This document shows, piece after piece, positions 43,446 through 63,965 of a stretch of DNA of 64,000 bases. The position numbers were made by a program, and so were the translations under genes. The stretch spans positions 124,001-188,000 of the IMG/VR virus record IMGVR_UViG_3300046507_000667. One strand, 5' to 3'. Origin of the DNA: a virus. The notes beneath the pieces were generated by a model, which saw only the letters and a program-made list of their open reading frames with translations, had not been told where the DNA came from and made no database searches. Numbering within the stretch: the first letter of the stretch is position 1; each line of letters begins with the position of its first letter.

Positions 43446-44699
43446 TTAATTAATCTTACCATAGATTGATACAATTCTTCCTACAGAATCATTAGATAGA
43501 CCAAACCATGCTCCGGAACTGATATTCGAAAAGACTGGATCGTTACGAACATCAGTAAAATTAATACTCTGCTTAGAGCCTGCAGAACTATCATTGAATT
43601 GCTGAGTAGTTAATAGACCGACTGAAGTAGCTCCATTAGCAATAACCATACGATCAAATGTGATTCTATATGAAAGATCCATATTAAAATCAAATTGAAC
43701 AGAGGTAGCCACAGTACTTTCTTCAGATGCATCTGGTTGTACTTGATCTTTAGATACAAGAGTAAATAGATTCAGGTTACTAATAGATGCAATAGCTGGA
43801 TGTTTAAATAGAGTTCTTGCTGAAACTCCAGGAGTTCTACCAATTGCAGTACCTGATAGATAATACTCGGTAGTATCGCCCTTATTTGTGTCAGGTAAAG
43901 TATCCATTAGATCAGTCTTTGTATTTGGTACAAATAACTGAAGAATTAGATCAGTATCATCAATTGGAGGCAAATGTGATACGGAAGAGCTTGCAATATT
44001 GCCAATAATAGCTACTCGTACTTTTACTTGAGCACTAGTACTATAAGTAACCTTTGCAAACTTCTGACTATCTAATTCAATTTTAAACGGAACTTGAATT
44101 GGTTCACCAGTATCAATATCAAAAAAGTAAGCTGTTGGCCAAGCCAAGAATTGCATTGAGAAGGAAGTACTTCTTACTCCATCCAAAGCTTCAGTTTCTT
44201 CAAAGATATCATTAAATGTAAATGGAACAGCATCTGACTTTGATACTAGATACCTACCAAGCCTATTTAAATAGGTTACTGCATCATTGGTTTCATCTAG
44301 ATCAGATTTAGTCTTATCTGCTTCTGCCTTTACATCATCAATTTGCCCTTGAAGATTTGCACCAACTCTACCAGCTAAATCATCAATTTCTCGTTGAATG
44401 GTATCAAGTCTATTAAGAATATCTACAATTGATTGATTTGTAGTATCCGAGCTACCTTGCCATTCAGCTAATGCATCTTGAATTTGCTTTAAATTAACTT
44501 TCTCTTGATCTGTAAGATACTTGATAATCTTTGCATATGATGGAACTAGGCCATTGTCAGTAGCAACGTCTGTATTCTCATCGCCATTAGCAACTTGCTT
44601 TAGAATATTTACTGCTTGATTGCCTTTAGAGACAATCGCTTTAATTTGTACTGCATAGTCAATTAGACTAACGATATCGGTACCGTCACCTGTAGCCAT
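43446..44699 (-). CDS. Tail-fibre-like protein sharing N-terminal module with the 27478 product (417 aa)
   Basis: ATG 44699 follows AAAGGGTAAATC. The N-terminal module (about 1-65: IDYAVQIKAIV, ANGDENT, VPSYAKI) matches the start of the 27478 product. A helical region at about 65-155 with heptads (LDTIQREIDDLAGRV) is a likely coiled coil, followed by a beta-rich C-terminal domain. Probable fibre that docks by the shared module. Confidence 0.7.
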   Translation of the reverse strand: MATGDGTDIVSLIDYAVQIKAIVSKGNQAVNILKQVANGDENTDVATDNGLVPSYAKIIKYLTDQEKVNLKQIQDALAEWQGSSDTTNQSIVDILNRLDTIQREIDDLAGRVGANLQGQIDDVKAEADKTKSDLDETNDAVTYLNRLGRYLVSKSDAVPFTFNDIFEETEALDGVRSTSFSMQFLAWPTAYFFDIDTGEPIQVPFKIELDSQKFAKVTYSTSAQVKVRVAIIGNIASSSVSHLPPIDDTDLILQLFVPNTKTDLMDTLPDTNKGDTTEYYLSGTAIGRTPGVSARTLFKHPAIASISNLNLFTLVSKDQVQPDASEESTVATSVQFDFNMDLSYRITFDRMVIANGATSVGLLTTQQFNDSSAGSKQSINFTDVRNDPVFSNISSGAWFGLSNDSVGRIVSIYGKIN

Positions 44700-44709
44700 G
44701 ATTTACCCT

Positions 44710-45444
44710 TTAACTTTTTGGAAGATAGTTATAGAATGCACCTGTACCTTCAGGTAAAGTTACATTCGCAAGATTATACAGTTCATCAGTCCATTCCTCA
44801 GTGAAGTCAAAGATAGCAGCATAAATATCCTTGAATACTGGAGTCCAATTCATTGTAAAGTCATGATACATCGTTACATTAGCAAAGATGTATAGACGAT
44901 CCATACCTGAAGTATCCAGAGTGACATTACTCCAGCTTGAGCTTGGACGTAATGTATCGAATAGTGAGGTAGCTGACCAAGAATCATACTTATAGTCAAA
45001 GGAATCTCTGTCTGTAATAGTACGAGTTCTCTGATATGACAATGAAATGAATTTTTGAATCTTAGCTAAATCTTTAGCTGGAATGTACTTGATATTACTT
45101 AAATTAAACTGTGTAACTGAATAAATCTTATTACAGATCATAAGGATATACCATAGATCTGCATTATTATAGAGTCGTAGAGCTACCAATTCTGGACGAT
45201 ACATTTCTGAAGGATCAACATCAATTGTGTCAATGTATGGCTCAAAATAAAAGAACATATCCTTCAATGTGCATACAGGTTCCTGAATAGTATACTCATC
45301 TTTTTCAAATTCCACTAACACCCTATCAGAAAGATTATATAGCTGTAGCGGATTTGTTTTAGCATTATTAATTGATTCTGTAAACGTAGCATACGCAGAA
45401 GAATCATATTTAGCAAATGAAACATCTGTATTTAAGCTAGCCAT
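44710..45444 (-). CDS. Baseplate wedge protein, T4 gp53-like (244 aa)
   Basis: ATG 45444. The segment RPELVALRLYNNADLWYILMICN (split here as RPELVALRLYNN and ADLWYILMICN, about residues 83-105) matches the pattern of gp53-type wedge proteins, P-E-x-L-A-x-x-hyd-Y-G-N-x-x-L-Y-W-hyd-L-hyd-x-C-N. The C-terminal half is aromatic and acidic with no recognised domain. gp53 joins baseplate wedges to the hub in T4. Call rests on one motif plus context. Confidence 0.6.
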   Translation of the reverse strand: MASLNTDVSFAKYDSSAYATFTESINNAKTNPLQLYNLSDRVLVEFEKDEYTIQEPVCTLKDMFFYFEPYIDTIDVDPSEMYRPELVALRLYNNADLWYILMICNKIYSVTQFNLSNIKYIPAKDLAKIQKFISLSYQRTRTITDRDSFDYKYDSWSATSLFDTLRPSSSWSNVTLDTSGMDRLYIFANVTMYHDFTMNWTPVFKDIYAAIFDFTEEWTDELYNLANVTLPEGTGAFYNYLPKS

Positions 45445-45489: not shown

Positions 45490-45664
45490 AAAAAAAAAAA
45501 GATCCCTCCTGCAGAGAGGGATCGAAAAATTCCGCGCTCGGATTAGCTCACAAGTCTGGAATTAAGGAAAACTAGCACAAAGCACTTATCTATATTGCGA
45601 GATATAGATGAGTACTTTATGAGTAACAACCTATAAGGAATATTGCTATTCTCTATAGGTTGTC
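45490..45664 (-). ncRNA. Candidate structured noncoding RNA (about 175 nt)
   Basis: The minus strand carries a conserved promoter box (45680-45671), then four hairpins: a 10-bp stem (45654-45663 with 45626-45635) plus inner 5 bp, an 8-bp stem (45602-45609 with 45588-45595), a 6-bp stem (45558-45563 with 45528-45533), and an intrinsic terminator of 8 bp (45516-45523 with 45501-45508) followed by 11 U. The first hairpin begins at the predicted start of transcription. There is no open frame of note. Not a tRNA by inspection. Confidence 0.65.
45501..45523 (-). terminator. Intrinsic terminator of the candidate RNA
   Basis: Stem GATCCCTC/GAGGGATC followed on the minus strand by eleven T (45500-45490), the strongest intrinsic terminator in the window. 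Confidence 0.9.
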
Positions 45665-45670
45665 ATGAAA

Positions 45671-45680
45671 ATAATATATA
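45671..45680 (-). promoter_or_regulatory. Promoter-like box, ATATATTAT class
   Basis: TATATATTAT on the minus strand, 7 nt before the first hairpin of the candidate RNA and downstream of the 45703 gene. Confidence 0.6.
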
Positions 45681-46333: not shown

Positions 46334-46343
46334 ATAATATCTA
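46334..46343 (-). promoter_or_regulatory. Weak promoter-like box
   Basis: TAGATATTAT on the minus strand, about 25 nt before ATG 46308; one or two mismatches from the window's common box. Confidence 0.35.
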
Positions 46344-46400
46344 TTTGTTGAAAAGAATGCAAAACATGAAATTAATTAAAACTGATTAGGAAAGTATTAC

Positions 46401-56493: not shown

Positions 56494-56729
56494 GATTAAA
56501 TACCTCTAGAATGGCTCTGACGCTCTCCCAGTACTACCCACATCAGTGCCCATACAGTTATATATTTGACTACTTTTACCTGCAATACCATTGTGATGGT
56601 ATGAATTTTTGCGAGTTGGTTTTACATAATGGTAAAGCTTAATATTTTAATACATCTGTCTTATAGTGTTACACGCTTTAAATTCTCCTATAATGCGATT
56701 ACTTACTCATAGATATAATATATACTTAT
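56494..56729 (-). other. Long untranslated leader or second RNA region
   Basis: About 235 nt without a credible gene on either strand. It begins with a promoter-like box (56724-56715), contains an ATACCAT/ATGGTAT hairpin near 56588-56605, and ends at the 56161 gene's ribosome site, so it is most simply a long 5' leader of that gene. Confidence 0.45.
56715..56724 (-). promoter_or_regulatory. Promoter-like box, ATATATTAT class
   Basis: TATATATTAT on the minus strand just after the closing stem of the candidate RNA at 56730-56864; would drive the 56161 gene. Confidence 0.5.
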
Positions 56730-56864
56730 TAATGTAGCAGGTTCGATTGCTTTAAAAGTCCCCCTATCAGTACAACGCAGTATCACTTAGGGGACGACCT
56801 TTATGATAGTCTTTCTGCATCTGATAGGGGAATGAAATTCAAAGCTCACTTACCTTTGCTACAT
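56730..56864 (-). ncRNA. Candidate elongated-hairpin noncoding RNA (about 135 nt)
   Basis: Nested helices along the whole segment: ATGTAGCA/TGCTACAT (56732-56739 with 56857-56864), GCTTT(A)AA/TT(C)AAAGC (56749-56756 with 56838-56845), CCCCTATCAG/CTGATAGGGG (56761-56770 with 56821-56830), ACGCAG/CTGCAT (56775-56780 with 56815-56820) and TATCA/TGATA (56781-56785 with 56804-56808). A promoter-like box at 56869-56878 puts the start of transcription at the outer stem. No open frame. It overlaps no gene but follows gyrA's stop. The end signal is unclear. Confidence 0.6.
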
Positions 56865-56868
56865 CAAA

Positions 56869-56878
56869 ATAATATATT
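56869..56878 (-). promoter_or_regulatory. Promoter-like box, ATATATTAT class
   Basis: AATATATTAT on the minus strand, directly after the stop of the GyrA-like gene and 5 nt before the outer stem of the candidate RNA. Confidence 0.55.
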
Positions 56879-61577: not shown

Positions 61578-62627
61578 CATATGTTAACCCTAGTATCGTT
61601 ATTACTAAAGTATGTATGATTTAAATTTCTAAATCAATAATATCCCGCTCATATAATTGCTTAATGATAAAAGCAGATGTCATCATTCCATGTAGAGAAG
61701 GAACTCGAATTACTTCAATTCCATGCTCTTTGCAAAGTTTAAACTTAGTTTTGTCTCTATTCATTGTCTTTGGAAATTCAGCTTCTCTTCCTTGCTTGGA
61801 AATATAATGCTGTTCACCATCACATTCAATAGCTAAGTTGTACTCTGGTAGGAAGAAATCAATCCTAAGACCAAATTCTAGCTTAAGCCAGTCAAAAGTC
61901 TTTTCTTCTTCATATACAATTTCAACTTCATCCAGTACTTCTTTAACTGCAATTGAAGTCTTTGATTTAGTTTGATTACATGGACACCTAGTACCATTAT
62001 GAAATAAATCAGGACGAGTTTTCCAATCCTTTCCACAGGTCTTATGTCTAAGTAATACATGAGTTTTGTTATTCACATAGCTACTAATTAAAGTATATTC
62101 ATTTCCTGTCAAATCTTTTAGCTTTTGACTAAATTCTTCAGCAGTATAACTCCATGATCTATGTGTAGCACACTTGGGACAATTATTCGGTTTTGGTTTA
62201 AGAAAATCATAAGGAGACGTGGTTCCCCACTCATGCCCACACTTATTGTGTTTGAGCATAATAGGATCATGATTCCGAATATACTGTCCTAGAACTGTAT
62301 ACTCTTTACCATATCGATCGCTAACTCGTTTACAAAATTCATCATGTGTAAGTTGTTTTGGCATTACAATTCTCAGTAGTAGAAACTAAGAATCTGTTAC
62401 ACAATCACCCTCTACCGATACATATCTCATGCTTTCACATGAGTTCAGATCATATCTTCATACTTAGTTTCAAGTATGTCTCCCGTTTCCCCTGCACTTG
62501 CAGAGTACGCCTTATGGCTGATCGTTGAACGTTCCTTTTTCAAGGCTTCGCTGCTGATTGTCCTCATCTTTACATGTTAGGAGTTTCCAGCAATTAGAGA
62601 GATTTAATGAGAGCAACTCGGCAGTTT
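61578..62627 (-). other. Group I intron in the gyrB-like gene (1,050 nt)
   Basis: Exon 1 ends in GGT (U before the splice site) and the intron ends in ATG with exon 2 GATTCG, so U and terminal G fit group I rules. Core elements on the minus strand: AATTGCTGGAAAC (62595-62583), AATCAGCAGC (62559-62550), P7 5' strand GTTCAACGATCA (62530-62519), P8 hairpin with AAGTAT/ATACTT, and P7 3' strand AAGATATGATC (62458-62448). The whole core lies before the endonuclease gene. Confidence 0.9.
61621..62364 (-). CDS. EDxHD-type homing endonuclease in the gyrB intron (247 aa)
   Basis: ATG 62364. Two zinc-finger-like repeats (ending in NNCPKC and TRCPC) precede a Vsr-like domain with the EDxHD motif in AIECDGEQHY at about residue 172. 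N-terminal MPKQLTHDEF and the repeats resemble the helicase-intron enzyme, which has three repeats and starts MPRQTTHKEF. It lies after the intron core, in the peripheral P9 region, and probably cuts intronless gyrB alleles. Confidence 0.85.
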   Translation of the reverse strand: MPKQLTHDEFCKRVSDRYGKEYTVLGQYIRNHDPIMLKHNKCGHEWGTTSPYDFLKPKPNNCPKCATHRSWSYTAEEFSQKLKDLTGNEYTLISSYVNNKTHVLLRHKTCGKDWKTRPDLFHNGTRCPCNQTKSKTSIAVKEVLDEVEIVYEEEKTFDWLKLEFGLRIDFFLPEYNLAIECDGEQHYISKQGREAEFPKTMNRDKTKFKLCKEHGIEVIRVPSLHGMMTSAFIIKQLYERDIIDLEI

Positions 62628-63965
62628 ACCCTCAACGAGATATAGCTCTGTACGTACACCGTCTTTTTCTTGACAATCTACGAACTTTGAGATATTGGAA
62701 AGTGACGTTACAAATGAACCACTTTCTTTCTTCACATTCTCAAGAGCACGTTTCTGTGCTAGACGAGACTTAGCTGAAAGAGCAAACTTAGTCGCAAGGA
62801 TTTTCATTTCCTTTGGACTATTATTCATCCACTCATCTAGCTTTGCATTTGTATACGACAATACATGGCCCGCTACATCAGTATTGACAAGCTTCTGTTT
62901 AGTCTGTGATGAATATTTCGGATTGAATACGAATACTGATACTACTGCTTCAAGACCAACGAATACATCTTCATTGTCAATCTTTTCTTTCGTAAGATTC
63001 TTTTCACGAACGAATGCAGTTACTTTCTGACTCAATGACCGTTTGAAACCAGTCACATGAGTACCACCTTCAGTAGTCTTAATAGTATTGGTAAATGACG
63101 TAATATTGTCACTTGCAAAACTATCATTCCAAGTTAAAGCAATTTCAATCTTAGTATCATTAATAACTTCTGAGGCAAGAGATACAGGAGCAATGATACC
63201 TTTCTTACCTACTGCTTCGGCTAGGAAGTCAGCTACACCTTCCTTGAAGTTATGAATAATCGGCTTTTCTTGATGACAGCTATGATATTCAACTGTCAAG
63301 CCAGAATTAAGTTGTGCAACTTCACGGAGGAATTTGACAATTTCTTCTTCAATAGGTAAAGTACCTTCCTCAAAGAATTGAGGATTGAATTGGAAGTTGA
63401 CACGAGTTGAAGACTTCTTATAACGCTTATCAGCTGGTAAAGTAACATTTTTCGATACCTTTACCTTCTGCTCATAACCATTATTGAAGGTAATTTCACC
63501 CTTATCAGTTCCTCGTTGTGCTTCTACATAAAAGATTGCTGAAAGAGCATTAACACATGACGCACCAACACCATTTAGACCAGTAGAATATACTGTCTTC
63601 TTTTCAAAGTTACGACCAGCATGGAGCTTGCCAAAAATCTTTGATAGGGTATTGGAACCATCATCTTGCTTATCAAATGGAACACCTCGGCCATTATCAT
63701 AGACAGAGAAGCTATAGTCATCATGCCGTGTAACAATGATAGCCGTTGCAAAACCTGCAAGAAATTCATCAACTGAGTTATTGATGATTTCTCGAATAGC
63801 TGTCAAATAACCTGCAGAGTCATTTGGACCAATATACATCTGTGGACGTACTTGGACACATTCCGGAAATGGAAGTTCTTTAATGTCCTTACCAGTATAG
63901 TCATTTGCTACTTTAGTAGCTGCTGCAGCAATAGCCGTTTTTTCTACAGACTTAGTACGAGCCAT
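62628..63965 (-). CDS. gyrB: GyrB-like topoisomerase subunit, exon 1
   Basis: ATG 63965 follows AAAGGTAGAAATTC. Encodes 446 residues with GHKL ATPase motifs: REIINNSVDEF at about 58-68, DNGRGVP at about 92-98, TGLNGVGASCVNALS at about 128-142, and the transducer domain. The exon ends with LYLVEG, cut by the intron before DSAGG; unspliced translation adds a short tail and stops. With exon 2 and the GyrA-like subunit this forms an A2B2 enzyme. Confidence 0.9.

Follow-up and report, generated by a model that had tools for sequence, protein, structure and literature searches.

Organization of the locus

The stretch of DNA analysed here, referred to as the window, comprises 64,000 nucleotides and corresponds to bases 124001–188000 of a 249,347-base virus record (IMG/VR record IMGVR_UViG_3300046507_000667). 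Between two structural genes on the minus strand of the window lies an intergenic region in which a promoter, a strongly folded segment and an intrinsic terminator follow one another. The following elements have been identified, given in window positions and in the direction of transcription:

46338..46349 (-), late promoter of the AR9 type, AACA-N6-TA, preceding the g046 homologue and recognized by the AR9 consensus (PMC5312081)
45703..46308 (-), upstream gene, homologue of the phiR1-37 structural protein g046 (~42% identity)
45664..45679 (-), early promoter of the virion RNA polymerase type, ATATATTAT-N5-TG, with the predicted +1 at the G at 45664
45490..45664 (-), predicted noncoding RNA of about 165-175 nt, proposed from its fold, the lack of an ATG and the lack of an Rfam match at gathering score
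45625..45664 (-), hairpin 1, 12 + 5 bp with one A.C mismatch and a GCAA loop, starting at +1 (fold and pairing probabilities)
45576..45621 (-), hairpin 2, 11 + 8 bp with one C.A mismatch and a 6-nt loop (fold and pairing probabilities)
45564..45575 (-), single-stranded C/U-rich linker CUAGUUUUCCUU, 12 nt (pairing probabilities)
45528..45563 (-), stem 3, weak and irregular, AAUUCC...GGAAUU (fold)
45490..45523 (-), intrinsic terminator, 9-bp stem GAUCCCUCU/GGAGGGAUC followed by U11
44710..45444 (-), downstream gene, homologue of phiR1-37 g047, matching PHROG baseplate wedge profiles

These homologies bear out the initial annotation, in which the RNA was placed between a baseplate gene and another structural gene on the same strand. 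The source genome is assigned to a jumbo phage related to Yersinia phage phiR1-37. Its tail sheath and tail tube proteins have 53% and 65-66% identity, respectively, to their phiR1-37 counterparts; judged by the tail sheath, the next relatives are AR9, PBS1, BpSp, the staphylococcal S6-like phages and Listeria phage LPJP1. Because each of the six RNA polymerase subunits of phiR1-37 has a homologue in this genome (6/6), both a virion and a non-virion multisubunit RNA polymerase (RNAP) are present. No tRNA or tmRNA has been detected within the 64-kb window. Five group I introns reach the Rfam gathering score across the 249-kb record, one of them at window positions 62426-62653 (-) and the others at four other genome locations; one of the five interrupts the gene of a virion RNAP beta-like subunit.

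The genes g046 and g047 overlap in phiR1-37, and the RNA unit is absent from the syntenic site there. Therefore the unit would have been either gained here or lost in phiR1-37, and on this comparison it is a discrete insertion or loss relative to that phage. The late motif of AR9, AACA-N6-TA/G, is enriched upstream of genes in the present genome (47 sites versus 18 in the reversed sequence), and its sites often precede structural genes; according to the authors of the AR9 study, no late promoters have been reported for phiR1-37 (PMC5312081).

Early promoter and predicted transcription start

The box ATATATTAT is located past the stop codon of the upstream gene, at 45679-45671 on the minus strand, and is followed by TTTCAT and then by the G at 45664. 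The form ATATATTAT-N5-TG recurs at about 60 intergenic sites of the genome, and nearly all intergenic boxes carry TG 14-15 nt past the box start. In an enrichment control, 55 sites were counted for the box pattern versus 3 for the reversed pattern. The motif derived from the intergenic ATATATTAT boxes settles on 63 intergenic sites; all 63 have T at offset 14, and 62 of them have G at offset 15. Perfect ATATATTAT-N5-TG sites number 39 in the phiR1-37 genome, and the reversed control gives 1; the eight named relatives searched all show enrichment of ATATATTAT-N6-G.

The mapped early promoters of AR9 have the consensus AAATATATATTAT-(6N)-G+1, are active without protein synthesis and have been assigned to the virion RNAP (PMC5312081), and RNA-seq of phiR1-37 has confirmed 56 predicted promoters of the A/dU-rich type (PMC4848604). 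The element and the spacing at 45679-45664 are the same as in the AR9 early promoters. The RNA had been described as having its own, conserved promoter box, the class of which was left unnamed; the recurrence of the box at about 60 intergenic sites and its identity with the element mapped in AR9 and phiR1-37 agree with that description, and the class is identified here as early, virion RNAP type. Since the box matches the early promoters of both phages, transcription is expected to begin at 45664 and to yield an early RNA. The predicted +1 G is the first base of hairpin 1, so that the first stem does begin exactly at the predicted start, as had been proposed. The locus has the composition of phiKZ-supergroup early units, namely ATATATTAT followed by 6 nt and G+1, in a genome encoding both virion and non-virion multisubunit RNAPs. 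That early transcripts start in a stem as a rule was considered and rejected, the enrichment being weak in this genome (12 of 61 early transcripts versus 6.1 expected) and lacking in phiR1-37.

Predicted structure of the RNA

The minus strand of the segment 45666-45487 folds with -63.9 kcal/mol versus -34.2 +/- 3.5 kcal/mol for dinucleotide shuffles (z -8.4), and the fold of the plus strand of the same region is weaker (z -6.6). Among 9,969 scanned segments of 175 nt, taken from both strands of the whole genome and ranked by energy corrected for dinucleotide content, the RNA occupies third place. Four stems in order are recovered, as originally described, and the pairs 45626-45635/45654-45663 and 45588-45595/45602-45609 are located where they had been put; the stems are not all perfect, however, as hairpins 1 and 2 have one mismatch each and stem 3 is weak. 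The earlier statements that the segment has no ORF and belongs to no known RNA family are upheld by the presence of zero ATG within the 175 nt and by the Rfam search, in which no family reaches the gathering threshold and the best weak match scores 23 bits versus the 65 needed.

The hairpins themselves could be the active part of the RNA if a host RNA-binding enzyme (e.g. RNase III) or an RNA-sensing defence took them as a decoy or as a substrate for processing; the RNA would then not be a base-pairing regulator. Two long near-perfect duplexes of 17-19 bp, present from +1 on, are consistent with such a role, and interactions of this kind do exist, as structured RNA of staphylococcal phages is sensed by a host cyclase (PMC10686824). 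Nevertheless, there is no match in sequence or structure to known decoys, and the motif GCAAUAU, common to the apical loops of both hairpins, was rejected as a meaningful signal because it is expected in 13% of shuffles. An active role of the hairpins of this type is judged improbable.

Terminator and organization of the predicted transcription unit

The intrinsic terminator with 11 U that had been claimed initially is found in the sequence as a 9-bp stem and the U11 run, which ranks among the three longest T-runs in the genome. The other early promoters in this genome mostly precede their gene by 30-90 nt. In both strict and permissive terminator scans, no early promoter of the genome other than that at 45671 is followed by a terminator ahead of the next gene on the same strand, gene positions being those of a simple coding-score caller, which may therefore miss small genes. 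Silencing of the baseplate genes early in infection needs no early promoter; the presence of both a promoter and a terminator points to the RNA itself as the product of the unit. It is reasonably probable that the locus is an independent gene for an early noncoding RNA in a jumbo phage of the phiR1-37/AR9 type; its promoter class, start position, fold, terminator and absence of an ORF are all read directly from the sequence.

Alternatively, the segment may be the 5' leader of the baseplate operon, in which partial read-through of the terminator sets the dose of the genes 44710 and 43446. Transcription from the early promoter, or from the late promoter at 46338, would then usually stop at the terminator, and the short RNA would be a by-product or would double as a regulator. 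In the stretch from the terminator to gene 44710 the motif scan revealed neither an early nor a late promoter motif, and gene 43446-44699, the next one, begins 10 nt past gene 44710-45444. Because of this gap, late transcription begun at 46338 may run on across the RNA unit, or there may be a late start that has escaped recognition, and dose control by a leader keeps a small but real share of the probability. A precedent is provided by the leader of phiKZ p40, for whose RNA of roughly 180 nt such a role has been proposed and for which larger read-through RNAs have been found (PMC8545117). On the other hand, no antiterminator fold has been identified: when the 3' arm of the terminator is left out, the 5' arm stays unpaired. 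A transcription attenuator or riboswitch leader, which calls for an alternative antiterminator structure, was rejected on this ground. It would, moreover, be odd for a structural operon to be transcribed early, and such a terminator is missing at the other early promoters. On balance, the leader of a baseplate operon is regarded as unlikely.

Search for related RNAs

Searching 50,697 phage records and plasmids with the locus and the RNA by blastn gave no homologue, the matches beyond the flanking gene being weak and at chance level. Promoter-plus-stem, stem-gap and linker patterns revealed no related RNA in IMG/VR; one set of the pattern matches proved to be other inverted repeats, and a further one, with 14 nt in common with the start of the RNA, precedes an ORF. 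Hairpin 2 was not found in the bacterial genomes searched. A covariance model, of limited reach because it is built from one sequence, detected no related RNA in phiR1-37, LPJP1, AR9, PBS1, BpSp, S6, Machias, SA1, phiKZ or two IMG/VR records, and its matches in phage and viral records were solely the RNA itself and its reverse strand. When the flanking proteins were compared with IMG/VR and bacterial genomes, phiR1-37 alone was matched. The tail tube search returned one 14.5-kb contig, 100% identical over the tail tube protein, which does not contain the RNA region. The predicted RNA is best filed as a singleton among phage noncoding RNAs.

A singleton with no detectable relatives, missing at the syntenic site of phiR1-37, might also have no RNA function and be what is left of an early promoter-terminator cassette that was once inserted, or a spacer that folds strongly. 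Yet an intact consensus promoter, a fold beginning exactly at +1, an intact terminator and one of the top three folds of the genome would be unlikely in decaying DNA, and a functionless relic or spacer is considered very improbable.

Comparison with known phage RNAs

The nearest known case in kind is the phiKZ p40 5'-UTR RNA, of roughly 180 nt, with two stem-loops and possible premature termination, described by Grad-seq and Northern blotting (PMC8545117). Both RNAs are promoter-proximal, noncoding, of the same size and free of a small ORF, and both come from RNAP-encoding jumbo phages. Two stem-loops are common to both, the second being the possible premature terminator in the p40 RNA, whereas in the present unit the two hairpins are followed by a separate third stem and the U11 terminator, between late structural genes. 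In contrast to the unit described here, the p40 RNA is a leader, namely that of gene p40, and is accompanied by larger read-through transcripts. As to homology, the single-sequence covariance model, with its limited reach, found no match in the phiKZ genome.

For phiR1-37, the nearest named relative, a single intergenic RNA, misc_4, has been reported besides nine antisense RNAs (PMC4848604). At most, the present RNA would function in the manner of these and the p40 RNA. Like the present RNA, misc_4 (61,640-61,936, between g099 and g100; PMC4848604) is intergenic and without an ORF, but it lies at another locus, is not matched by the covariance model and contains no internal ATATATTAT-N5-TG site. 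The Hfq-type trans-encoded phage sRNAs, such as lambda PreS (PMC12197685), share with the predicted RNA an own promoter, a single-stranded linker and an intrinsic terminator with a long U tail; they differ from it in that its promoter is of the phage virion RNAP and not the host RNAP type, and there is no homology. Among phage noncoding RNAs, the distinguishing feature of this candidate is the predicted combination of a virion-RNAP promoter with its own terminator.

Proposed function

In the proposed mechanism, the virion RNAP, injected together with the DNA, would initiate transcription from the early promoter, at 45664, and stop at the U11 terminator, releasing an RNA of about 165-175 nt. 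This transcript should be stable because both of its ends are sealed in stems, and it would accumulate, while the terminator would shield the late baseplate genes downstream from early transcription. The RNA probably acts in trans, either by base pairing via the exposed C/U-rich linker or through hairpins that would bind a host or phage protein. A more specific suggestion, made only tentatively, is that this virion-RNAP RNA gene is among the first phage products and acts in trans in host takeover or counter-defence, its product being neither mRNA nor tRNA.

The linker CUAGUUUUCCUU is complementary to Shine-Dalgarno sequences of the AAGGAAAA type and pairs with several predicted phage start regions. 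In a scan of all predicted start regions, shuffled seeds were as good in 11 of 100 cases by the mean and in 24 of 100 by the best match; the linker is a possible antisense seed, but its pairing with Shine-Dalgarno regions is not significant versus shuffled seeds.

To our knowledge, the products of jumbo-phage virion RNAPs have been treated as messenger RNA. If true, an early RNA gene standing on its own would be a candidate for RNA-based host takeover that can be deleted cleanly, and the search rule for the AR9/phiR1-37 group (early promoter, no gene, terminator) would make more such RNAs findable.

Other structured loci with early promoters

Three further structured loci with early promoters have been observed in the genome. 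The first, at G000:C1:218141-218330 (+), is located outside the window and consists of an early promoter with a 176-nt leader (fold z -7.5) that contains a hairpin of roughly 23 bp, AATTTTCTCATC...GATGAGAAAATT, and is followed by an ORF of ~447 aa for which Pfam gives no match. The second is a closed structured domain of roughly 125 nt (GTAGCA...TGCTAC) at window positions 56738-56862 (-), transcribed from a predicted early promoter at 56869; it has no terminator or credible ORF, and a second early promoter, at 56715, follows it closely. The third, at G000:C1:229223-229397 (-), is the strongest fold of the genome scan and has an early promoter (229293) inside the inverted repeat TTAATGGTTA...TAACCATTAA.
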